From: a virus
IMG/VR virus record: IMGVR_UViG_3300000115_000054
Location: 10,892-42,252 of that record
DNA: 31,361 nucleotides
Strand: one strand, 5' to 3'
Positions 1 to 31,299 of the stretch are shown piece after piece. Both the position numbers and the translations under genes were made by a program. Each line of letters begins with the position of its first letter. The first letter of the stretch is position 1. Below the pieces are notes generated by a model. It had not been told where the DNA came from, did not search any database, and was given only the letters and a program-made list of their open reading frames with translations.

Positions 1-3000
1 TAAAGTAACGATATTTATTTGTTGCCCGAAGTTGCTGTCGCCGTTGAAAAAAGTTTCCATTCTAAACGAATTTGGGAAAGTAACGGATCCATTCCGGACT
101 GTCTCATTCCACTTATCAAAGAAGGCGGCCGCGAAGGCGGGGGAGGCGAAATGAAACTGAATCTCGCCCGAGTTCTCCCCGATTGTATCTATTTGCCTCA
201 ATCCAAGTCCTTCGAACAAGTTTTGATGTTGTGTATCATTTGGTATATCAAACTTAAAAGTTTGATTGTGTGCCAATGGTCCGTAAGTTCCACTGACGTT
301 ATCACCAAAACACTCACATGCCCGACATCCCGGGATGTCGGGAGACCCAACACAATCGCCCGGAAGTGTTTCAAAAGCATCATCAATTTGACCATCGGGG
401 GAGCCCGGGATGCAAAGTGCGCCCGGTTGCACACCTACCCAAAACTCCACCGATTTTTCACCCGATCCGTTGCAATTGAAAAATGGAACCGTGAGGGTCA
501 ATGGACCTTGAACAAGATCGACCCCTACTATTGCAGTGTTAAAACACTCCCCCAATGTGTAATCAATTGAAGTCTGGTTTTGATCTGTAATTGTAGCCTG
601 TCCAAGCACCGGAACACAATCTTCTGGTGACGCCGGGAATCGGTTTTCAACAGGAACCGTGAATACAAGTGTTACCCCAATTGGATAGTAACATGCGGCC
701 GGATCGAACAATCCACAAACTTCCGACTGTATCTCGATATCTGGCGGTGTGCAAGTACATCCGCCACCTAAATCTTCGCAGTCCCTGCCTATGGTTATGA
801 TGTAAGGAATTCCGATCTGCGACCCCGCATTCACATCTCTGACGTTAACAATTTTTGTTTCACTAAAGGGAGATGTCTCCGGGCACGAAGAAGACCAGTT
901 GACTCTAAGTCTAAATTGATCGCCAATGTCTCCATCGAGCTGGGTCTGCCGAAAATCGGCGGACGATGCGGGTCTTTGTGATTCGCCATTTAAGAAAAGA
1001 TCAAAGACTTGGTATTCTAACCACTGATTACCCCCATCGGTACTCTTTTCCCAAACATAAGACAAATTCATTGCACATGCTGATTGTTGATTCTGAAATG
1101 CAGATATCAAATCTCCATCCCAGCCGGAATCAGTTGGAAAGAAAATATCACCCGAATATAATCCCGATCTCAAATTCCTAATTGTGACAGTGGATCCCGA
1201 AGGTGGATTTGGTGGGAAATCTGGTGCTACTTCATCGGTATTGCATGGCGGGGCGATGGATATTATCGAGGGGTCTGCATTCCCATCTGCTGGATCCGCA
1301 TCCGCAACGAAACTACCCGCGCCGACCTGCATGATTGGGTTTGGTTCTCTACAGTCTGAACATGGACTACAAGAATCTAACGGGATATCGACACAAGTCA
1401 AACATGGAATATATTGACCGTCTTCTAGTGGTGGAATTGCTGGTTGTGAACCATCACCACAGAAAACTTGATCCTGTATGATCTCCAGACCGAGCTCGAT
1501 CGCTTGTTCTCTTGTTATGGATTGACATTGACCGTTGATACAAGCGACTCCCGTTTCTGGTTCTGGTGGTTCTGGACCCTCGCCACATAAATCTATCGCA
1601 TCTTGGTGACCGGGACGAGTTGCGTCGGTCAAGTCAAGCATAAACTCTCTAACATCGTTGAGATTATCTTTCAGCGTTTGGCCTGTTCCCCACTTTTCTG
1701 TATTCGATCCAAAACCACTCCAACTGGCCGCTGCCAATCCAATCATATATCCTAAGTTATATGCAATGCAAAATAGTCTTTTGCATTGTTCTGGTGAAAG
1801 GTCGAGTTGACTGTATCGGTTCCCCTGTGACTTCAGTTCTGTTCCCAACTTGCTAAAGTCAAAAATTACACCAATTTCGTGCTTACTCTTGTCTAGATTA
1901 ACACTACATGTTTCAAGTGACCGTTTTCCGCCAATACGATCAATTGGCACGCCATTTAAGTCTAGTATTTGTTCACCGCCTAGGTCATTTACACATCCCC
2001 AGAACGTGGGGAATAATCCCCAGTATCTTGCTATTTCATATCGTCTATCTGGGGATCCGATACCAGTTTTACTAACACCATGAAGTCTCCAGTTGGTGCC
2101 GGGGCCCATAGGACCGTCATCATTGAAGTCTATGAGTGGAACCGCTTCATATTGATTTTTTAATCCATATCCCTTCGCTTTTTCAATAAAATCATCGGGT
2201 TCTAATCCTGCCATTTGTGCTTCTGCCCAAGCATTTGATCCAGCATCAAAACCAACACCAGTGAATCCCAATTCCTTCAGTGGAATGAGTTCATTATCCC
2301 ACCAACCATAATCCCAGAATCTAATTTCCGGAATTCGATCTGGTGAAAATAATCTATTACCGGCAGTATCTGCTGGCAAGAACCCACATTTGTTCCTCAG
2401 ATCGCTTAGTTGATTCTTGTAATCTATACCCATGCTTACTCGATCATAGTTATTCTCAGATGGGAGTTCCCCAATTTCATGTCGGTTTCTGGCATCTTCA
2501 TATGCTTCCTTGGAAACATATGGTATTCTCCATCCGGAATATGCTGCGAACTCAAGATCAGTAATACCATTTTCTTCTGCGACCTCTTTACATCTGGCGA
2601 TCGCCACTCTCCAGCACTCTGGGGAGTTTCCTTGTCCGTTAGGTAATACACCGGGCGTATTCACGACGCCGGGGGTGCCAGCTGGATTGAATGGTGTAGG
2701 TAACCAACATTGTGGTTTTGTTACAGGTGTCCCCAAAACATCCAAGTCGGTATTTTGAAGCATTCCATGTGCAAATGGCTCCGAACTCCTTTGACCACGG
2801 ATAGGTCCGGGGTTCCAAGCACAATGTCCGGTGTTTATATAACCTTCAACCGGGCCGACGTTCGACCTGTAGTTTGGTGCCCAAGGAACACTCATTCCTG
2901 TAAACGTATTACACGGGAATGCTCGCATACCAGTACTGGTTGATCTCACCTCGTCCCCATCGACGACTCCATCACCATCGAGGTCCTCCGCCGCATCACC

Positions 3001-6000
3001 GGGTTGCCCATATCCGCTATTGTTGACAAACCCAGAAGTATTTGTTATCTGGAACCTTGAAAATCCCTGTTCAATGAGGGGTATAATAATCTCCTCACAC
3101 AAAGTCAACACACCATTTGCATTAAAGTCATCGACCTCACTCGCACCCGTCGCAATTTTGAAATAGTCGGCTTCACCATTTCCTTGAGTTGGATCTGTTC
3201 TTCGTGTGTACTTCTCGCGGCCGGGTTCACCCCATTGTCGGGCACCATCAGCCCCACCATCTGGTCCATCGTTCATTGCTACCCTTGGATCGTTTGAGGT
3301 CCAAGATTTCGGTGATTGTTGTGTCCATATGCCATTAAAAATTAAAGGTCTATGGTCTGGTATAAACGGATAGTATTCAGATCCAGAGCATTCGTTTTCC
3401 AATGTAGCCTTGGACGCAGGTGCGGATGCCGCATCTAGTGGATCAAAGAAGGATGCTACTTCTGTTATGAAATATTTACTTCTTGGCAATGAGTATTGTG
3501 CAAATTGTCTAAACAATTGTCTGTTTAGTTCTTTGGAATCTACTTTTACACTTTCTCTTGATGGTGGATTGATGCTGACAAAGGAGACAGCAGGTATAAC
3601 ATCAAGTGGATTGTTTGGATGATTTTCTCTGTGCTTCATGAGAATTTCATCAATCAAGTATTTGGCCTGATAAGTTTTTCGGCCTTCCAATAGTTTTGTG
3701 TAAGAAGAACTGTCTTTACTGAAATTAACATTCCAGTGAATTGGAAGTATAAAGTCAGCAACCTCGGTTATCGTCTTGCCGTCAAAGGTGTAATCCATTG
3801 CCTTTAGGTGTCTATTCAACCAAGGCAAGTTTTGAATATCTTGTCCCCCAAGTGGATCAAATCTCCACGGATTGGCGGTTTCAAACTGACCGGGGGATCC
3901 GAATGGATGCACTGTGCCAAGTGCATAGATTCCAAGTTGTGCGTTTGGGAAGAGTTCCCTTGCTGCCATGATCCGTTTTATAAAACCTTCAGTGAACCAC
4001 TGGAGATTTTCAAGTGAATCCTCATCCGGAAAATCGTTTCCAGCCTGACCATATGAGAAAGGATGCTCTACATTAATGACGATTTTACCTTTACATTCTT
4101 CGTTGATGTAAGAGGAAAGCACTCGACCGGCGGCATCTCGTTCCAACAAGAACGTATTAATTCTGTCTTGAATCTCGCTGATGGTGGCGTTTCTATAATC
4201 ATCATCTGTGATCGTACCGTCTGCTTCTAGAGTATAACTTGGAAGATAGAATACATTTCCAATTTCACCTTGTTCGAAAGATGTGTTCGATCCAATCACA
4301 CCACCGTTATTACCTTCACCAGCTCTAACTGTGGTGAAGTAACTGATGTCCATGTTGCATTCAGGAATTGTAATTGGTTCTTCTAGTGAGTCGGCAAAAA
4401 GACCGTTGAACAGGTAGTCATAGTAAACAAAGTAATCATTCCTCGTGGCACCAAAGACATATCCATTTAGATATTCTGAATTTGAAATTGTGCTATTCAA
4501 AATCAAAGAGTTTTCTTCATTGAATATACGATCACCTTCTTCTGTGTCGAGATCAATTTTTTCATCGAACGGCGCGAAGACACCGAGATCGTCATAAACA
4601 CTTCCGCGTAACCAGTTGAATATTTTAACTTGACTTGCCCGAGCCGTATCCCCCATGTATTTAATAATGCCTCTATTCAAAAGCATTGCGTTGTTGGTCG
4701 GAAGATCAACTCCTTCTGTGATTCTTTCCCAGTTGGTCGATTCGCCTATTTGAATATACTCGTTTGGCATGTCAGACCAACCATCGAACATGTCAGTCTG
4801 ACCGGAGTTTGGATTTGTTGTGTAATAAGAAGGTGCAGTCCAAATTACTCCTGTATCTCCATACTCAGAAATTGCGTTTACTAATTCATCCCAGATAAAC
4901 TTCTTGTGGGCAAATTTTGCAGTATACCATGCCATGTTATGATATTGATTTTCCGCCATGATTTCCTGTATACCGGGATCCGCAATTCCCAATCGAACTG
5001 CTTCTGCCGGTCTACCTTCACCAAACAAAGCACGACCGTTGTACTTGGAAGGATCCAGTAAGGTCCATAAGTCATTTTGGAAAAATCTAAATGGTCCATC
5101 ATAAAATGTTACTCGGTCATGTCCGACCACACTCTTTGTGTGTTGTATCAATCGAATGATACAATCTTTCATTATATCCCATTTGCTAGTTTTTTCTGCT
5201 CGGGTTCCATCAAGACCCCAGAAAATTCCGGGTAGTCGAACTGCATTACCGAATGGTTCCTGTCCGTTATTTGTTTCCGGTAATTCGGATCCACAATTTC
5301 TCAAGAATGCCTGGCCAGTCTCAGTCACAAAAGGAACATCAAAGAGTTCAATTTCCACATCCAATACAATGGTATCTGAGGTTCTTGAAGATGAATTTCT
5401 ATATGGGTTACTTTGGACTCTAGTGGTGATAAGATTCTTGACTTGCTGTTCGACCTTCGTGATATATTTTTCGTAGTCGATTGGACCAAGATTCTTAACC
5501 TGTGTCCGGTCTGCGGGTGACGAAGACCTGAAATTAATTGCAGGAAGTGGTGAACCAATGCCACCACCAACGCCAGGTGAATCTTGGTTATTCGATGATG
5601 GATCTACATTTGCAGATACACTATCGGAACTCATTGTAATGAGTGACCACCCACCACCCTTGGGGAATGCTGTATTGAAATATGTGCTTGCATCATTTCT
5701 ATTTTTAATTGCTCTTCCTGTGATTTCACCACCACTCTCATTGAAGTGATACCCCAAGTCTTGGAAATACCATCCACCACTGTCATTAGAAGGCACGCGA
5801 CAACACTTAATGTCATTCGTATTCGTAATCGAACTTCGTGCCGTCGCATCATAGATGTCATCAAAATCACCTAAACGTCCGGGTAGATTGAATTCACTGT
5901 TGCTGTCGTCTATCTGATCTAAAGCAGCCGCATTCCATGATATAACTTCCTTGATTCCCTTACTACGAAGCATTCTGATGAAATCACAAACAGTCTCTTC

Positions 6001-7878
6001 TGAGTCAACTATGTTTGACTCGATTGTAGTTGGTCTTTGAATCCAAGGTACGATATTTTCTGGTGATTTTTCAAACTCCAGTGTACCAACACCATCCCGG
6101 CTATATGGACTAATCGACGAAGAAAGAAGCGATCTTTCCTCAATAGAACTAGATTCAAGCAGAAGAGTATCAATGTAATTTCTGTAGTAGTCTTTTCTCT
6201 TGTCGTAAGGATCTTCTATATTTGGGTCGTAGTTGTCATCGACTGAGTAGATGTATGGAGATATGATCGGTCCACCAAATTCTCTAGACCAATACACTTT
6301 ATTATCGTTTACATCCGGTCTAGCAGAACCCAAAAACGATACTGGATTATTCGCATCCATTGGTTGTGGTAGACTTAAATCTTTACTTCCGTAGTTGCTG
6401 CACTTGATTGTAGGGAAGGCAGCACGAAGTGGTTCATATACTGATTCTTCAAGTGCAGCGTCAAAGGCAGTAGTGAGAAGACTTTGATACCAAGAATTAA
6501 ATGTCAACAAATCGTATCTTCTAGCACCATTTAAACTTGGAAGTGAGGTCACTTGATTCTTCCACCATTTACCAGATCCAACGGTTATCCAAGCCGCATC
6601 GTTTTTCTGGGGGAGGGTGTAGGAACCTCCTTTAATGTTTTCTGTATTTTGATACCGATAGGCAAATCCGTTATGCCCATTCGCATCTGCTTCCCATGCC
6701 CAACTACTCAAAGAAACTTTTTGCCCGGCTCCGTCAAATACAGTCGTGTCCTCGTCAATGTCAAGGTATTGGTCTACAGTTCCTTCTACAATCTGCTTGA
6801 GTGTTTTATTAAATCCCGGAATTAGTTCGGTGCTATATCGAGGATCCAATTGGCAAAGACCAAATGTTTTATCATGCTGTTGATTGTATGTTTTGGGGTA
6901 AAGTTCACTGTCAAGCCAACATCGAACTGGGTTCTTGATTACCCTGCCATTTTCTAAAAATACCTCTTGTTGTAGTCTTTGGTATTCTGCAATGAAAGCA
7001 TTAGTCCATCTTGTCGTTTCGGATATACCGTTTTCGTACCAAGGTGTCCAAGCAACGTATGGTGTTGAGTGTGTTTTATTTGCGGCGATACCGTCAATTG
7101 AACTTGTGTTGGATATTGACTGATTGCTGGGACTAATCCGCAAAAACGGTGAAAACCCTGTTCCATTTGGATATTCAACTTCTAAAATTGCATCGTCTTG
7201 GTGGAATCCAAGAGCAGGAGAAAATTCGTTGGGCGAGAAATCACCTCCGGCGGATCCATCGTTAGTATCGTCAGATCCGGGTGTCACCTGACTGAAGTAT
7301 TGAATTTTTTGTGCGGATCCGAGATCGTTTCCGAGTTGGTTTGCATCAGTATAATCGTATGGGCCCACTTCTTGTCGAATAGTTCCACCGAGTGCGTAAA
7401 AAGTAAATCCGATTACGTTTGGATAATCGTCTGCAATAATCTGAGCAACTAAACCTCTTGCTGCCGATACTGCATAGTCCTCTATACTTGTGATTGTAAC
7501 AGGAGTATCATATTCACTTGTATCGCCTTGTGGTCCGTTAGTTCTTCCCGCGTGACCGAGACGACCTCTCGCATCTACCGAATATAGTTTCTGCACGAAG
7601 ATATCAGTGTCAACTTCGACTTGTTTTGGTGCAATGGCTACTTCTTCGAATCCGTGTAACTGCGGACTCGTCCAGTACCAGTTCGTAAACGTAGCGTCGT
7701 AATCGGCAGCAAAAATATCAGGATCGGGGAATTCGATTGCACAATCTTCATCACCGCCGCCGCCACCACCACTTCCCGGCCACCCGATGCCGCCAGGGCA
7801 CAGGATAGAATTTGGATTCTCATCACAAAAACCGTCAAGTGGATTTCCACCACCACCGCCTGGAATTACGTCACTCAT
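1..7878 (-). CDS. Giant tail-associated protein, 3' end outside window (>2,626 aa)
   Basis: The frame stays open from an ATG at 7878 to the left edge, 2,626 codons without a stop, so the C-terminus is missing. The N-terminus has two glycine-rich linkers (residues about 7-11 and 33-40), as in proteins tethered to a baseplate. Several stretches look like alpha/beta-barrel (glycoside-hydrolase-like) segments: residues about 1260-1480 with INVEHPFSYG and ITEVASFFDP, and about 1845-1930 with FWDYGWWDNE and GVGFDAGSNAW. An EF-hand/dockerin-like loop DLDGDGVVDGDE sits at residues 1632-1643. The region beyond about residue 2080 is rich in paired cysteines and looks like beta-sandwich modules. It is the last visible gene of the fibre block, starting one base after the stop of the preceding gene. 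I infer a very large receptor-binding or polysaccharide-degrading tail appendage. No catalytic site is proven, and I do not recognise a named family. Confidence 0.85.
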   Translation of the reverse strand, partial: MSDVIPGGGGGNPLDGFCDENPNSILCPGGIGWPGSGGGGGGDEDCAIEFPDPDIFAADYDATFTNWYWTSPQLHGFEEVAIAPKQVEVDTDIFVQKLYSVDARGRLGHAGRTNGPQGDTSEYDTPVTITSIEDYAVSAARGLVAQIIADDYPNVIGFTFYALGGTIRQEVGPYDYTDANQLGNDLGSAQKIQYFSQVTPGSDDTNDGSAGGDFSPNEFSPALGFHQDDAILEVEYPNGTGFSPFLRISPSNQSISNTSSIDGIAANKTHSTPYVAWTPWYENGISETTRWTNAFIAEYQRLQQEVFLENGRVIKNPVRCWLDSELYPKTYNQQHDKTFGLCQLDPRYSTELIPGFNKTLKQIVEGTVDQYLDIDEDTTVFDGAGQKVSLSSWAWEADANGHNGFAYRYQNTENIKGGSYTLPQKNDAAWITVGSGKWWKNQVTSLPSLNGARRYDLLTFNSWYQSLLTTAFDAALEESVYEPLRAAFPTIKCSNYGSKDLSLPQPMDANNPVSFLGSARPDVNDNKVYWSREFGGPIISPYIYSVDDNYDPNIEDPYDKRKDYYRNYIDTLLLESSSIEERSLLSSSISPYSRDGVGTLEFEKSPENIVPWIQRPTTIESNIVDSEETVCDFIRMLRSKGIKEVISWNAAALDQIDDSNSEFNLPGRLGDFDDIYDATARSSITNTNDIKCCRVPSNDSGGWYFQDLGYHFNESGGEITGRAIKNRNDASTYFNTAFPKGGGWSLITMSSDSVSANVDPSSNNQDSPGVGGGIGSPLPAINFRSSSPADRTQVKNLGPIDYEKYITKVEQQVKNLITTRVQSNPYRNSSSRTSDTIVLDVEIELFDVPFVTETGQAFLRNCGSELPETNNGQEPFGNAVRLPGIFWGLDGTRAEKTSKWDIMKDCIIRLIQHTKSVVGHDRVTFYDGPFRFFQNDLWTLLDPSKYNGRALFGEGRPAEAVRLGIADPGIQEIMAENQYHNMAWYTAKFAHKKFIWDELVNAISEYGDTGVIWTAPSYYTTNPNSGQTDMFDGWSDMPNEYIQIGESTNWERITEGVDLPTNNAMLLNRGIIKYMGDTARASQVKIFNWLRGSVYDDLGVFAPFDEKIDLDTEEGDRIFNEENSLILNSTISNSEYLNGYVFGATRNDYFVYYDYLFNGLFADSLEEPITIPECNMDISYFTTVRAGEGNNGGVIGSNTSFEQGEIGNVFYLPSYTLEADGTITDDDYRNATISEIQDRINTFLLERDAAGRVLSSYINEECKGKIVINVEHPFSYGQAGNDFPDEDSLENLQWFTEGFIKRIMAARELFPNAQLGIYALGTVHPFGSPGQFETANPWRFDPLGGQDIQNLPWLNRHLKAMDYTFDGKTITEVADFILPIHWNVNFSKDSSSYTKLLEGRKTYQAKYLIDEILMKHRENHPNNPLDVIPAVSFVSINPPSRESVKVDSKELNRQLFRQFAQYSLPRSKYFITEVASFFDPLDAASAPASKATLENECSGSEYYPFIPDHRPLIFNGIWTQQSPKSWTSNDPRVAMNDGPDGGADGARQWGEPGREKYTRRTDPTQGNGEADYFKIATGASEVDDFNANGVLTLCEEIIIPLIEQGFSRFQITNTSGFVNNSGYGQPGDAAEDLDGDGVVDGDEVRSTSTGMRAFPCNTFTGMSVPWAPNYRSNVGPVEGYINTGHCAWNPGPIRGQRSSEPFAHGMLQNTDLDVLGTPVTKPQCWLPTPFNPAGTPGVVNTPGVLPNGQGNSPECWRVAIARCKEVAEENGITDLEFAAYSGWRIPYVSKEAYEDARNRHEIGELPSENNYDRVSMGIDYKNQLSDLRNKCGFLPADTAGNRLFSPDRIPEIRFWDYGWWDNELIPLKELGFTGVGFDAGSNAWAEAQMAGLEPDDFIEKAKGYGLKNQYEAVPLIDFNDDGPMGPGTNWRLHGVSKTGIGSPDRRYEIARYWGLFPTFWGCVNDLGGEQILDLNGVPIDRIGGKRSLETCSVNLDKSKHEIGVIFDFSKLGTELKSQGNRYSQLDLSPEQCKRLFCIAYNLGYMIGLAAASWSGFGSNTEKWGTGQTLKDNLNDVREFMLDLTDATRPGHQDAIDLCGEGPEPPEPETGVACINGQCQSITREQAIELGLEIIQDQVFCGDGSQPAIPPLEDGQYIPCLTCVDIPLDSCSPCSDCREPNPIMQVGAGSFVADADPADGNADPSIISIAPPCNTDEVAPDFPPNPPSGSTVTIRNLRSGLYSGDIFFPTDSGWDGDLISAFQNQQSACAMNLSYVWEKSTDGGNQWLEYQVFDLFLNGESQRPASSADFRQTQLDGDIGDQFRLRVNWSSSCPETSPFSETKIVNVRDVNAGSQIGIPYIITIGRDCEDLGGGCTCTPPDIEIQSEVCGLFDPAACYYPIGVTLVFTVPVENRFPASPEDCVPVLGQATITDQNQTSIDYTLGECFNTAIVGVDLVQGPLTLTVPFFNCNGSGEKSVEFWVGVQPGALCIPGSPDGQIDDAFETLPGDCVGSPDIPGCRACECFGDNVSGTYGPLAHNQTFKFDIPNDTQHQNLFEGLGLRQIDTIGENSGEIQFHFASPAFAAAFFDKWNETVRNGSVTFPNSFRMETFFNGDSNFGQQINIVTL

Positions 7879-10263: not shown

Positions 10264-12434
10264 TGGAAATTAATTCCCCCGACAAATCCGTAAACATTAA
10301 CACCGGCGTCGGTGGTCAAGAATGAAATTATGTCTGTACCAGAAGCAGTGAGTGCTGGTGCAACATTACCGGGCCACTTAATCAATTGTGGTGATGCAAC
10401 CCAAGTTACCGTGTGCGCCCCGCCGTTTGTGATTATAAGAGTGCATGTCCCTGATTTTCCAGAAGGTGGCGAGTTTGCAAAACTTATGGTACAATCGCCC
10501 GTGATGGTTACTGTTTGCACATTTCCATCCTCAAAATCAACCGAGAAACTGGTACTTTTCGAACCAATCGCGTTTACTTTTTCCGAGAAGTCTTTTAGTA
10601 CTGGTCTGACGACATCGGTATCAGCAAAATTAGTTCCGCTGCTGTTTATTGTCTGGTAGTTTGTTCCACCCGCCCTGACAGTGATTGCGGATGAATTGTC
10701 ATCGACTGTTAATATCGTGTCGTTTGATCCGGCTTCGGGATCGCCTATTTTTACAACGTGATTGGCACCAAGTTGTATACCAACTTCGGAATCAGATGGA
10801 TGTTGGAATCCAAACCCCTTTGCCAAAATCATACCAGTCGAAACACCTTGACTTCCATCTGTAACCAGCATCGAGTTCGATGGTCCAGCGACATCAAATC
10901 CAAGTGTGTCTCCGTCAAGTGTCAATCCAGCAGTAACACCACCGAGAGATCCATCTGCACCACTAATCTGTACAAATGCGTCTCCATTGTAAAAGAACAG
11001 ATCACTTGTATCTGACTCCAACCAGAAGTCACCTGTTTCTGCACCAGATGGCGCATCTGACTGTGCGGTATAACCAGCCACTCTTGCTTCTTCGTAAGCA
11101 AAGGCAACATCAACAAAGAATTCAGTTCCCGTGCTAATACCATCTGAATTTGCATCTATTACAAAAGAATCAACATCAAGACTATAGTATGTGCCATTAT
11201 ATGACCCAGTTCCTGCTGTCTTAAATGTCATGTTTCCTGTAGTAAAACCCGCTCCGCGAGGAACTCCCGGTTTGAACGGAAGTATGTCTATGTTTGCCTT
11301 TTTCGTTAGCAGTGAACTGAGGTCTAAGTTTCTGCTTCGTTGGTCGATGTTATCCAAATCACTTTTATGGAAAAGGATTTTTGTTGTGTTTGCAAGTATA
11401 CCGTTGAGTGCAGTAATCGCAAAGTCACCCGGATTTGCTGGAACTCCGTTTCCTGCTGTCCATCCATAAGAAGGATTGTATCCTCCGTAGGTTCTTTTTA
11501 CGCCTGTACCTGAACCTTCTGCCCCAACAATTCCCTTTGTCCCTTGTGCTGTGACGCTTATTTCAATTAAGTCACCGGCATTCGCAATTACGTTCACGAA
11601 GTTTGATTGGTCGCCGGGATTGTAGTCACAGAAATATCTGGTTCCCTCGTCACAGAAAGGAACTTGATTGCAAGCACCAGCAACATTACCACCACCACTG
11701 TAAACTGCGGTCGCCCCGGTGTCCACTCGTTTAAATGTGAAAGTATAAAGTACCGAACCACCAGTATTCGCATTGATTTCATTGAAGAAATTAGTAGCAT
11801 CAGATCCGTCTGAAAAAGAATCATCAACTTCAAGAATAAATCCTGCATTTTCGAATTCTAATATTTTAAATGATCCAGCCGATGGTGCTGATCCCGCTCC
11901 ACCAACAGTGCTTGAAGGTTCTCCTGCTTCATATGTAAAATTACCAACAGTGACGACAGTATCATCTAAGGTAAATGTCATCGAGTCGGTGTTGCTTGCG
12001 TCCCTTGTCAACCCGAGAGGTCCGTCTGACCCAACCAAAATACTAATCTTACCATCGGCAGTAGGTACAACCTGACCACCACCAGCGGTGACGCCAGAGA
12101 TAGCATCACCAGTCGTCAGAACTGTGTCGTCTATTGTAAAGGTCATCGAGTCGGTGTTGCTTGCGTCCCTTGTCAAACCAAGGGGTCCGCTACCATTCAC
12201 CAGAATACTAATCAAACCATCATCAGTAGGTACAACCTGACCACCACCGGCGGTTACACCGGAGATAGCAGGAAATTTTGCTGAGACAATTGCGTGGGGA
12301 TTGGTATCACTTGTTCCGACGAACATGATACCATCATTTGCATTGAACGCGATCTCCCCAGCAGAGAGACCCGATGCACAGGTCGCTCCAGCTGAGGATG
12401 ATCTTCTTACTGTTAATTTATTGTTTCTAGCCAC
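10260..12434 (-). CDS. Long tail fibre-like structural protein (724 aa)
   Basis: The N-terminus (RNNKLTVRRSS...GLSAGEIAFN) is paralogous to that of the next gene upstream (RNNKIIIRKS...GLSAGEFAFS), so both probably use the same attachment domain. Residues about 56-165 contain two nearly identical 55-residue units beginning AISGVTAGGGQVVPT. The middle is rich in Gly, Ser, Thr and Asp, typical of fibres. The C-terminal part, from about residue 610 (FSVDFEDGNVQTVTITGD...), resembles a beta-sandwich found at the ends of phage fibre proteins. The start is a GTG at 12434: an in-frame TAA lies five codons upstream and no ATG fits. The weak ribosome site is GGAATTGTGAT. The stop overlaps the start of the adhesin gene. 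The likely role is receptor contact from the baseplate; precise fibre type is unknown. Confidence 0.82.
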   Translation of the reverse strand: MARNNKLTVRRSSSAGATCASGLSAGEIAFNANDGIMFVGTSDTNPHAIVSAKFPAISGVTAGGGQVVPTDDGLISILVNGSGPLGLTRDASNTDSMTFTIDDTVLTTGDAISGVTAGGGQVVPTADGKISILVGSDGPLGLTRDASNTDSMTFTLDDTVVTVGNFTYEAGEPSSTVGGAGSAPSAGSFKILEFENAGFILEVDDSFSDGSDATNFFNEINANTGGSVLYTFTFKRVDTGATAVYSGGGNVAGACNQVPFCDEGTRYFCDYNPGDQSNFVNVIANAGDLIEISVTAQGTKGIVGAEGSGTGVKRTYGGYNPSYGWTAGNGVPANPGDFAITALNGILANTTKILFHKSDLDNIDQRSRNLDLSSLLTKKANIDILPFKPGVPRGAGFTTGNMTFKTAGTGSYNGTYYSLDVDSFVIDANSDGISTGTEFFVDVAFAYEEARVAGYTAQSDAPSGAETGDFWLESDTSDLFFYNGDAFVQISGADGSLGGVTAGLTLDGDTLGFDVAGPSNSMLVTDGSQGVSTGMILAKGFGFQHPSDSEVGIQLGANHVVKIGDPEAGSNDTILTVDDNSSAITVRAGGTNYQTINSSGTNFADTDVVRPVLKDFSEKVNAIGSKSTSFSVDFEDGNVQTVTITGDCTISFANSPPSGKSGTCTLIITNGGAHTVTWVASPQLIKWPGNVAPALTASGTDIISFLTTDAGVNVYGFVGGINFQ
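11940..12269 (-). repeat. Tandem 165-bp repeat (2 units) inside the fibre gene
   Basis: Two directly adjacent in-frame units, 12105-12269 and 11940-12104, each encode 55 residues starting AISGVTAGGGQVVPT. They share long identical nucleotide stretches, such as the segment around 11979-12011 and 12144-12176. This indicates recent duplication in a fibre shaft. Confidence 0.9.
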
Positions 12435-22155: not shown

Positions 22156-22857
22156 ATGGGTTTACCTAAAATTGAATTACCGTTAAGTAGAGTTAAATTG
22201 CCCAGTGGGAAGTCTATTCAGATAAGACCGTTCACTGTAAAAGAAGAAAAACTCCTCCTGTTGATTAATCAGGACAACAATTCGGTAAAAGACATCAATG
22301 ATATCATCCGACAAGTGATTAATAACTGCACAGAAGGAAAAGTTGACTCTTACAAGTTACCAATGTTCGATATGGAGTATTTGTTCACTGAATTAAGGAA
22401 GGTCAGTGTTGGAGAAACCATAGATTACATCTATACATGCCCATCCTGTTCAATGAAATTCGAAACATCGGTAGATTTGAACAACATCAAGGTAGAAAAC
22501 ATCAAAAAATCGACGGACATCAAATTAGACGACGAAATTTCGTTCAAAATGCGATATCCGTCACAACAGGATGAAAATAAAACCGCAGGAATGGGTGTTG
22601 AAGAAAGAGTGATGGAATATGCCAACGATTGCATCGAGAAAATTTTCGTGGGAGAAGAATCACACGACACAAAGGATTTGTCCAAAGAAGAAGTTCAAGA
22701 ATTTATTGATTCCCTCCCCGGAAAAGCAATATCTAAACTTATAGAGTTCTTTTTGGACCTACCAATGTGCAAAATCGAAGAGTCGGTGGTTTGTCCGAAG
22801 TGCAAAGAGAAAGGTTCGATCAAACTGGAGGGTATGGCAAATTTTTTCGTAGCATGA
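22156..22857 (+). CDS. gp26: Baseplate hub assembly protein gp26 (233 aa)
   Basis: The start MGLPKIELPLSRVKLPSGK and RPFTVKEEKLLLL are typical of gp26/T4_baseplate proteins in marine T4-like phages. A split zinc-ribbon is evident: CPSC at residues 95-98 and CPKC at 213-216, which could bring the two ends of the protein together around a metal. In T4, gp26 acts with gp51 and gp27-29 in assembling the hub. The ribosome site is AAAGG 8 nt upstream. The stop codon overlaps the gp51 start (ATGA), so production of the two is probably coupled. T4 gp26 is 208 aa, close to this length. Confidence 0.9.
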   Translation: MGLPKIELPLSRVKLPSGKSIQIRPFTVKEEKLLLLINQDNNSVKDINDIIRQVINNCTEGKVDSYKLPMFDMEYLFTELRKVSVGETIDYIYTCPSCSMKFETSVDLNNIKVENIKKSTDIKLDDEISFKMRYPSQQDENKTAGMGVEERVMEYANDCIEKIFVGEESHDTKDLSKEEVQEFIDSLPGKAISKLIEFFLDLPMCKIEESVVCPKCKEKGSIKLEGMANFFVA

Positions 22858-23024
22858 TGTCATATAACGACATCAATAACTACTATACACTGAATTTCAA
22901 CTTGATGAAACACCATAATTTTTCATTGACTGAAATTGAAAACATGATTCCATACGAAAGAGAAATATACGTTAGTTTGCTCATCAAACACTTAAGAGAA
23001 AAAGAAGAGAAGAATGGCAACTGA
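22854..23024 (+). CDS. gp51: Baseplate hub assembly catalyst gp51-like (56 aa)
   Basis: This short, charged, helical protein begins MMSYNDINNYYTLNFNLMKH and has the conserved-looking LTEIENMIPYEREIYVSLL core that follows gp26 in T4-like phages. T4 gp51 is 249 aa, but the marine forms are much shorter. In gp26/gp51 pairs the arrangement recalls the G/T chaperone pair of lambda-like phages. The first ATG at 22854 overlaps the gp26 stop; a second ATG directly follows and either may be used. The last 11 nt overlap the tape-measure gene. I infer a chaperone-like assembly role. Confidence 0.78.
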   Translation: MMSYNDINNYYTLNFNLMKHHNFSLTEIENMIPYEREIYVSLLIKHLREKEEKNGN

Positions 23025-29725: not shown

Positions 29726-29731
29726 TGATGA

Positions 29732-29756
29732 AAACACCCCCGAAACGGGGGTGTTT
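29732..29756. terminator. Bidirectional hairpin terminator
   Basis: AAACACCCCCG (29732-29742) pairs with CGGGGGTGTTT (29746-29756) around a 3-nt loop. It follows the 375-aa gene. On the minus strand it is followed by one more U, giving UUUU, so it would also stop a minus-strand RNA coming from the 29866 promoter-like site. Confidence 0.85.
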
Positions 29757-29758
29757 CC

Positions 29759-29858
29759 ACTATGCGGTCGAAAGGTAGCGAAATTCCTTTTGGCAGTTCC
29801 ATGAAACACAGAAAAGTGACGCGCCTTATTGAATGGCGTAGTTCGCAGTCTGCCCGAC
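29759..29858 (+). ncRNA. 23S rRNA domain IV-like segment (helix 69-71 region)
   Basis: AAGGTAGCGAAATTCCTT at 29772-29789 is identical to the nearly invariant core of bacterial 23S rRNA (E. coli about 1926-1943). Similarity continues upstream: ACTATGCGGTCGA here against ACTATAACGGTCCT in E. coli helix 69. It resumes downstream with AGTTCC (29795-29800) and GAATGGCGTA (29831-29840), both in the rRNA order. The part between is longer and unlike E. coli (41 nt against 23). The rest of the rRNA is absent. No promoter is visible on the plus strand, whereas the minus strand has a late-promoter-like site on one side and a terminator on the other. An expressed RNA is therefore possible in antisense orientation. 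This is homology by eye from memory of E. coli rRNA. Confidence 0.65.
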
Positions 29859-29865
29859 CCAACAA

Positions 29866-29873
29866 TATTTATA
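29866..29873 (-). promoter_or_regulatory. Late-promoter-like TATAAATA box
   Basis: The minus strand reads TATAAATA, identical to the T4 late -10 motif, overlapping the stop codon of the upstream minus-strand frame. The next features on the minus strand are the 23S-like segment and the hairpin at 29756-29732, so it could drive a short RNA of about 130 nt. A chance A/T match cannot be excluded. Confidence 0.4.
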
Positions 29874-30282
29874 AATCAACGAATCTCTCGGGTGGATATT
29901 GGTTGATAATTGGATTCATATCATTCCACCCATACACCACCCACTGATCTCCAATCTGAAATTGATCGGGTTTTAGTAAATTAGACCACCAGATTCCGTT
30001 GCCATACTGCCTTGATCCGTCAGGTGGTTGTACTTGTGCCCTACCCGTAACATTCTGAGAATCCGTTGCAACGGATCCAATCATCTCACCATCTCGATAG
30101 ACCTCAATAACCCACTTTGCGTTGGGATTTTCTGAGACCCATTCATCAACAGACATTGTATCATTATCTAAATTCACTGACTGATACCCGTACGTCGATA
30201 CCGAGATGGCGGCTGGTCCTCCAGAGCCGGAGTCGTCTGCGACTCCGAAGTCTCCTTTGATTAGATCAACCGCCAACCCGCT
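29869..30282 (-). CDS. -1 frame extension of the dockerin protein (about 137 aa)
   Basis: A long open frame continues in the -1 frame from the slippery site of the dockerin gene to a TAA at 29869. It lacks a credible start: no ATG near its 5' end and only TTG codons without a ribosome site. Its sequence, SGLAVDLIKGDFGVADDSG, then SVDEWVSENPNAKWVIEVYRDGEMIGSV, GNGIWWSNLLKPDQF and WVVYGWNDMNPI, looks like a real folded domain with Trp-rich beta strands. I read it as the C-terminal part of a 398-aa frameshift product. It could also be the 3' half of a gene broken by a mutation or sequencing indel. Confidence 0.7.
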   Translation of the reverse strand, partial: SGLAVDLIKGDFGVADDSGSGGPAAISVSTYGYQSVNLDNDTMSVDEWVSENPNAKWVIEVYRDGEMIGSVATDSQNVTGRAQVQPPDGSRQYGNGIWWSNLLKPDQFQIGDQWVVYGWNDMNPIINQYPPERFVDL

Positions 30283-31064
30283 TTTGGGACAATCCAATGT
30301 CCTCCCCTATTCGCATCACTGGGTTGTTCATTGAAAGTAAGTTTGAAGATATGATCTGCCTCGTTGAATGATCCATTGACCACTTCTACTGGAGGATCCA
30401 CTGGATCCGGATCGGGACCAGCGTTTGCCTCATCAAGAGAGTCATCCGAAGATTCAGACCATTGGTTTAGCAGGATTTCTAAATCTGCGCCATCGACCAA
30501 ACCACTCTGATCGAGATCATACAGAGGATTATTAGTTCCAAATGCTCCCATAACCAGCATCTGATCTTGCATATCAACCCACATATCGCTGTTAACATCT
30601 GCAAGAAGTCCTTCCGATCTGGTCATGATTTCCCAGAAAATTTGAGTGGTTAAACTCTGACCCGGATCGAGAACTTGCTCGTATACCGTAATGAGTCTTC
30701 TGGTTGATGGTTCCCAGCAAACCTCTTCAAATCCGGGAGGAATGATGGGCATGATACCTTCACTCAAAAGAATTGACTGACGGTATCGTAGTCTTCTCCT
30801 CTGTTCTGAGTTGTTGGTCCATTCGATCTCCCCATCCATAGGAAATGCACCAATCGTATCTCGCATGAATGTATCATATGATGCGATAATAGTTCTGGTA
30901 TCTGTCTGAATTTCAGAGACCGTAATGAGTTTATCCGTATCGGGTACGGTCACACTCGTCATCGGCATAAGCCGAGGAGGACAGTCTAAATCATTTACTT
31001 GTCCGTGCGCTGCTACCGACAGTGATACGGCCAGTGTCGCGCTTTGATACATTTGTAATTTCAT
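30261..31064 (-). CDS. Secreted dockerin-domain protein, 0-frame product (267 aa)
   Basis: The N-terminus is a signal peptide: MKLQMYQS, a hydrophobic ATLAVSLSVAA and a likely cleavage after AHG. A beta-like region without a recognised fold follows (about 25-150; two cysteines). Residues about 153-205 form a type I dockerin-like pair of EF-hand repeats: LLADVNSDMWVDMQDQMLVM and LYDLDQSGLVDGADLEILL, ending NQW. A Pro/Asp-rich linker (DPDPVDPPVE) leads to a partial domain that stops after HWIVPKAGWRLI. Translation begins at the ATG at 31064 with AAAGGAG upstream (a TTG one codon earlier is also in frame). It overlaps the holin-like gene by 74 nt. In planctomycetes such dockerins sit on secreted proteins, so export or cell-surface action is expected; the function is unknown. 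Confidence 0.8.
   Translation of the reverse strand: MKLQMYQSATLAVSLSVAAHGQVNDLDCPPRLMPMTSVTVPDTDKLITVSEIQTDTRTIIASYDTFMRDTIGAFPMDGEIEWTNNSEQRRRLRYRQSILLSEGIMPIIPPGFEEVCWEPSTRRLITVYEQVLDPGQSLTTQIFWEIMTRSEGLLADVNSDMWVDMQDQMLVMGAFGTNNPLYDLDQSGLVDGADLEILLNQWSESSDDSLDEANAGPDPDPVDPPVEVVNGSFNEADHIFKLTFNEQPSDANRGGHWIVPKAGWRLI
30282..30307 (-). promoter_or_regulatory. Candidate -1 programmed frameshift signal
   Basis: On the minus strand the heptamer C CCA AAA (30288-30282) is in the correct X XXY YYZ phase of the dockerin frame. A Shine-Dalgarno-like GGGGAGG (30307-30301) lies 12 nt upstream, the spacing that stimulates -1 shifting in bacterial dnaX. The 0 frame stops six codons later. An 8-bp hairpin (30247-30228) begins about 34 nt downstream, farther than usual. 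Confidence 0.6.
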
Positions 31065-31299
31065 CAATTACTTCTCCTTTGTTCGTCGTTACTTTCACCC
31101 ATGCTCTGCTCCAAATATAACTGCACATGACGGCCCCCGCCACAGCCCACATTGCAATTTCTCCGCCCTCTGTAATAGGCCAGTTTTTAAAGAAACCAAA
31201 TTGTTCTGCGAGGGGCAACCCTCCAATGCCAATTGCTGCCCAAAATTCCGTTGACTTAACACCGGGTTTCGGTTCCGTTGTTGTAGTTGTTGTAGCCAT
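30991..31299 (-). CDS. Holin-like small membrane protein (102 aa)
   Basis: After a Thr-rich start (MATTTTTTEPKPGVK), the protein has a moderately hydrophobic stretch, FWAAIGIGGLPLAEQFGFF, and a clear membrane segment, EIAMWAVAGAVMCSYIWS, followed by a charged, basic C-terminus. Size, one or two spans and a Lys/Arg-rich tail are holin-like, and small membrane proteins of this type are often lysis proteins in phages. No lysozyme gene is adjacent in this window. The ribosome site is AAGGAG with good spacing. A TATAAATA late-promoter-like box lies about 40 nt upstream. The last 74 nt overlap the start and signal peptide of the dockerin gene. A non-lytic membrane role is possible. Confidence 0.6.
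   Translation of the reverse strand: MATTTTTTEPKPGVKSTEFWAAIGIGGLPLAEQFGFFKNWPITEGGEIAMWAVAGAVMCSYIWSRAWVKVTTNKGEVIDEITNVSKRDTGRITVGSSARTSK

Follow-up and report, generated by a model that had tools for sequence, protein, structure and literature searches.

A viral gene whose reading frame closes just after a slippery heptamer, with a long open frame running on in the −1 register, may be one gene decoded by frameshifting, two genes, or one gene broken by an error. We analyzed such a locus in a 31,361-nt stretch of DNA (the window), which covers positions 10892–42252 of a 42,252-base virus record (IMG/VR IMGVR_UViG_3300000115_000054). Comparison with related sequences makes it very probable that the gene is decoded by programmed −1 ribosomal frameshifting.

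Gene layout and predicted products

The layout is as the original prediction, made from the letters of the window alone, had described it: C_CCA_AAA lies in phase near the end of the 0 frame, GGGGAGG stands 12 nt upstream, six sense codons separate the AAA of the heptamer from the 0-frame TAA, and the two predicted products are a short form of 267 aa and a fused form of 398 aa. The peptide across the slip junction would be HWIVPK-SGLAV, and its counterpart in the short form HWIVPKAGWRLI. The prediction had also held the −1 frame to be long and free of start codons; long and open it is, but TTG codons are present at 30297 and 30276. Upstream, stops of the −1 frame fall at −18 to −69 nt. The features of the locus are, in window positions:

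30991..31299, minus: small upstream ORF overlapping the gene, 102 aa, with hydrophobic segments; adjoins the gene in relatives too
31064 (ATG) to 30263-30261 (TAA), minus: 0-frame ORF, 267 aa; in order signal peptide, β-sandwich, dockerin-like EF-hand pair, Pro/Asp linker, first ~35 aa of the C-terminal module, 6-aa tail, TAA
30301..30307, minus: Shine-Dalgarno (SD)-like GGGGAGG, ending 12 nt before the heptamer; duplex with the anti-SD −11.2 kcal/mol
30282..30288, minus: slippery heptamer C_CCA_AAA, 0-frame codons CCA AAA; same in 9/13 distinct sequences, CCCTTTT in 4/13
30267..30275, minus: 5’ arm of the stem, TGGCGGTTG, 6 nt past the heptamer
30261..30263, minus: 0-frame stop TAA; TAA, TAG or TGA 19–28 nt from the heptamer start in all relatives
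30223..30253, minus: inner hairpin holding GGAGTCG-CAGA-CGACTCC at 30229-30246, with an A-U/U-A exchange versus relatives
30207..30215, minus: 3’ arm of the stem, CAGCCGCCA
29869..30288, minus: extension in the −1 frame, P-K and then 137 more residues, ending at TAA 29871-29869; homologues in all relatives, changes biased to third positions
29729..29759, no strand: inverted repeat between convergent genes, likely a bidirectional terminator

A slippery heptamer conserved in two versions

The main ORFs of the window contain 54 in-phase X_XXY_YYZ heptamers, among which CCCAAAA opens the longest −1 frame by far (139 codons, the next being 61); it also has the most stable downstream RNA among the twelve in-phase heptamers listed for the window. 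For conservation, we counted 13 distinct sequences including the window. The comparison with homologues that the original prediction had proposed found the two-frame layout in 12 of 12 relatives, whereas the exact heptamer was retained in part of them: CCCAAAA is present in 8 of the 12 (L002, L003/L004, L005, L013, L015, L025/L028, L026 and L050) and CCCTTTT in the other 4 (L045, L046, L047 and L051), and the SD-like motif varies.

We aligned eight of the CCCAAAA sequences by codon, the corresponding nucleotide alignment being ~1.26 kb long. The third base is invariant in just 14% of the 0-frame codon columns of this alignment, whereas it is invariant in all three codons of the slip site (V/I/L-P-K). 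The codon before CCA encodes V, I or L and always ends in C in these eight sequences, compared with a C-ending share of 28% among V/I/L codons, and the base before CCA is C in 13/13 distinct sequences. The three longest invariant runs of the eight-sequence alignment are TGGCGGTTGA (10 nt), which is the 5’ stem arm, TCCCAAAAG (9 nt), which is the heptamer, and GCCGCCAT (8 nt), which is the 3’ stem arm. CCCTTTT is likewise canonical and in phase and occupies the same codon pair as CCCAAAA, changing the residue from K to F. Both C_CC.A_AA.A and C_CC.U_UU.U are among the frameshift-prone heptamers tested in E. coli (PMC4066793). Since CCCAAAA and CCCTTTT alternate at one fixed site with both the letters and the residue changed, it is the slipperiness itself that has been kept; as judged from the alignments, this swap between two canonical heptamers shows slipperiness itself to be under selection.

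An SD-like element and a downstream stem-loop flank the heptamer

At 12 nt, the SD-like GGGGAGG of the window lies inside the range of 6–17 nt upstream published for bacterial −1 frameshifting (PMC4066793). GGAGG or GGGGG occurs at the matching position in L002, L003, L005 and L015, the weaker AAGGA or AAGGT in L013, L025, L026 and L050, and the CCCTTTT clade has GGAGG or GGGGG 18 nt upstream of the heptamer. The upstream pairing with the anti-SD amounts to approximately −11 to −12 kcal/mol in 5 of 8 sequences.

The strongest element is one that the original prediction had missed: a conserved, long imperfect hairpin that begins 6 nt after the heptamer, inside the published stem spacing of 5–8 nt downstream (PMC4066793). 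In the window its energy of −42.3 kcal/mol is the lowest among 20,852 windows of 83 nt on both strands; against dinucleotide shuffles the z value is about −4.5 to −5.9 in four sequences, and 0 of 1000 codon-preserving shuffles reached the real energy in each of eight sequences. Counted over the hairpin pairs, 93.5% of cells are standard and four pairs have double-sided changes, and the covariation score was reached by 0 of 500 shuffles. An Rfam search at the slip site returned nothing. The CCCTTTT clade has a weaker stem at an equal distance from the heptamer in another pairing register, and 128–306 of 1000 codon shuffles do as well, which is not significant; when the folded segment begins another 5 nt downstream, the real energy is reached in 4–31 of 300 shuffles. 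We dropped the idea that the same pairs had changed from G-C to A-U by compensation in this stem, because the register is shifted by 3 nt on alignment A9. On these comparisons, a putative stimulatory stem is shown for the CCCAAAA clade only.

The −1 frame encodes a selected C-terminal module

The identity of the extension to that of the window is 68–72% within the CCCAAAA clade, with 64% for L050, and 44–49% in the CCCTTTT clade. After the overlap, the first, second and third codon positions show 32, 21 and 64 differences, respectively, between the window and L002. By this pattern of substitution, the extension evolves as a protein and both frames are under protein-coding selection, and the −1 extension is so without a conserved ribosome-binding site of its own. 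The 0-frame stop position is served by TAA, TAG or TGA; therefore, termination is selected as well as continuation.

Distant homologues (L034–L038; 32–41% identical over the matched part) end just past the dockerin-like part, and the linker, the heptamer and the extension are absent from them. In the frameshifting families, the linker and ~35 conserved residues lie between the dockerin-like part and the slip; therefore, the 0 frame appears to supply the beginning of the module and the −1 frame the rest. The slip thus appears to fall inside the module, and the short product would carry a truncated one. L046 and L047 are 48% identical in the N-terminal part, and 76% and 74% identical on either side of the slip; this difference between parts of the protein suggests that the slip site and the module may be inherited separately from the N-terminal part.

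Programmed frameshifting and its alternatives

The SD-like element, the heptamer and the stem are all found and conserved; therefore, the full standard set of three stimulators of bacterial −1 frameshifting is present and selected. These signals, their spacing and conservation, and the coding selection in both frames are read directly from the sequences; we infer the slippage itself, its frequency and the export of the products. A ribosome at C_CCA_AAA would have tRNA-Pro in the P site and tRNA-Lys in the A site, and would be stalled by GGGGAGG behind it, pairing with the 16S rRNA, and by the hairpin ahead. A fraction would re-pair one base back (CCC AAA) and read 137 more codons, and the remainder would stop six codons later. 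One mRNA would thus yield products of 267 aa and 398 aa that share the signal peptide, the β-sandwich and the dockerin-like part, with the complete C-terminal module in the long product only. The −1 frameshift of the original prediction is thereby supported by the conserved layout, both heptamers, the stem-loop and the coding selection.

The main rival, and the only serious one, is that ribosomes terminate and reinitiate at an overlapping TTG, GTG or ATG codon (TTG at 30276-30274 in the window), which would make the extension a separate cytoplasmic protein. Such a codon does occur in 13/13 sequences, 7–16 nt before the 0-frame stop. However, its retention in every relative follows from its overlap with the invariant 0-frame Trp codon TGG, which forces an NTG; a very stable hairpin has its base at this codon, pairing of the anti-SD with the stretch immediately before the codon is poor (−0.1 to −5.4 kcal/mol), and the product would be without a signal peptide. 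Reinitiation would also leave unexplained the invariant in-phase CCCAAAA, its replacement by CCCTTTT and the SD-like element at −12, and we consider it unlikely. Independent internal initiation at TTG 30297, with GGGGAGG as the ribosome-binding site, would draw on a TTG that is in the −1 frame and 3 nt after GGGGAGG. That spacing is short, though, and the codon is missing in the relatives, whose −1 frame reads, for example, RRAFYRPKSG with no ATG, GTG or TTG there; we rejected this start and regard such initiation as very improbable.

Transcriptional rather than ribosomal slippage on the A run would likewise yield both frames, but it would need neither an SD nor a hairpin, and the run consists of four A’s (or T’s) only, while known bacterial transcriptional slippage uses longer runs; we give this explanation hardly any credence. 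Homopolymers at the slip site (T4, G3) could invite a sequencing or assembly indel, and a decayed gene could also show two frames. Against this, contig 3300000116_005982 of IMG/VR, the same virus in another assembly, is 99.96% identical over 7451 bases (3 mismatches, 0 gaps) with an identical site, the 12 other distinct relatives keep the two frames, and the layout recurs in contigs from >10 metagenomes with two heptamer versions and both frames under protein selection. Because independent contigs keep the layout, sequencing error is ruled out, and the chance of an indel or decay is practically nil. Programmed frameshifting is therefore the reading that we carry forward.

Protein domains, phage setting and possible function

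The original prediction had called the product a secreted dockerin protein. The dockerin assignment is weak in the window, where Pfam Dockerin_1 (PF00404) scores 16.2 bits against a gathering cut-off of 22.9, but the cut-off is reached in the relatives L026 (23.7 bits) and L035 (23.2 bits). The protein is apparently secreted or exported, on the basis of a signal peptide recognized by eye. The N-terminal model (pLDDT 81) consists of a β-sandwich and, after it, two helices that lie at the dockerin-like EF-hand motifs; its sole strong structural match is a viral protein, A0A516MFS6, and no PDB entry matched with E < 0.001. The extension has no Pfam, PHROG or PDB relative, its Pfam hits (Ig_ZP2, 0.035) not being significant, and AlphaFold gave the extension alone a pLDDT of 41.6 with no confident fold.

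No annotated phage matched the proteins of the window. PHROGs in the window include gp2, gp4, gp5, gp26, gp48 and gp53 types, and gp32 lies beside the relative L022; these core morphogenesis and replication genes of T4 bear out the earlier view that the setting is T4-like, and the source phage is a T4-like and probably marine one. The CCCTTTT module of L051 (DKPV01000026.1) comes from a contig of 6 kb that was assigned to a Flavobacteriales MAG (UBA7325); the contig is probably a phage fragment, and the assignment is a possible hint of the host. Elsewhere in the window (1-7878, minus strand), a very large ORF of >2600 aa, Gly-rich near its start, runs off the window. Two ORFs adjoin the frameshifting gene in L026 (751-1638 and 1679-2785), one beginning with a signal peptide (...FAQEVCPPRY) and the other having EF-hand/dockerin-like repeats (Pfam EF-hand_6, 3.3e-06). 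By their sequences, these neighbors form a putative cluster of dockerin-like and signal-peptide proteins in this phage group.

The signal peptide, together with the lack of a PHROG or significant PDB match, argues against a capsid or tail protein. Taken with the dockerin-like part and the aromatic-rich C-terminal module, it suggests an exported, calcium-binding, adhesive protein that would occur in two forms. Given that the small membrane-protein-like ORF is kept alongside in relatives, the protein may act at the host envelope, and the C-terminal module may perhaps bind surfaces or glycans. We infer that the slip would serve to keep constant the proportion of exported molecules that have an intact C-terminal module. 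A broader scenario, offered tentatively and with some doubt, is that the protein is exported and not part of the virion, that the slip sets the ratio of forms with and without the binding module outside the cytoplasm, and that the slip site and module are an accessory cassette which was added to an older frameshift-free protein and kept working through the change between CCCAAAA and CCCTTTT.

Comparison with known frameshifting systems

Frameshifting produces C-terminal Ig-like or adhesin extensions in T3/T7 gene 10 and in the major tail proteins of A2, A118/PSA, SPP1 and lactococcal 936 phages (PMC5009743; PMC6669499). As in those phages, a fraction of the protein would gain a C-terminal module through a slip near the end of the short ORF; unlike those capsid and tail carriers, the protein here combines a signal peptide with a dockerin-like domain, belongs to T4-like phages, and has the slip inside the module. 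The short product of T7/T3 gene 10 is a complete capsid protein, whereas the short product here would hold a truncated module. The signal resembles that of E. coli dnaX and the IS3 family in having an SD-like element upstream, an X_XXY_YYZ heptamer and a stem-loop 5–8 nt downstream (PMC4066793), but the gene is a different one and the heptamer is CCCAAAA or CCCTTTT. Like the Lambda G/GT-type chaperones, it would shift by −1 just before the 0-frame stop to give short and long products (PMC5009743); unlike them, it is not a chaperone before the tape measure gene, but follows a small membrane-protein-like ORF and has a signal peptide.

A literature search, with most subscription papers outside its coverage, found no frameshift in a dockerin-like phage protein. 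The mechanism is known; its setting, a dockerin-like and apparently exported protein in T4-like phages, is new. These phages thereby gain an unannotated family whose three-part frameshift signal is very clean. Gene callers will split such genes or lose their C-terminal module.

A frameshift candidate between gp26 and gp51

Another heptamer in the window, an in-phase T_TTT_TTC, lies at the end of the gp26-like ORF (22156-22857), just before the gp26 stop, and gives access to a −1 frame of 60 codons with homology to gp51; the region concerned is 22835-23024 on the plus strand. T_TTT_TT[C/T] with a −1 frame of 58–67 codons is also present in cyanophages S-MbCM100, ACG-2014e, P-HM2 and S-RIM44, pelagiphage HTVC008M, Pseudomonas phage pf16 and Aeromonas phage CC2, and is absent from the T4-type phages SHSML-52-1, Vibrio K356 and Salmonella S118. 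In several of the phage records with the heptamer, gp51 is unannotated or begun at an internal start. A conserved T_TTT_TTC would thus join gp26 and gp51 in the listed subset of T4-like phages. Vladimirov et al. 2022 is cited in the PRFect paper (PMC10885494) for the statement that the tail assembly chaperones of T4-like phages do without frameshifting. A slip between gp26 and gp51 would explain why cyanophage gp51 has been described as only ~20% of the usual length (PMC3037559).
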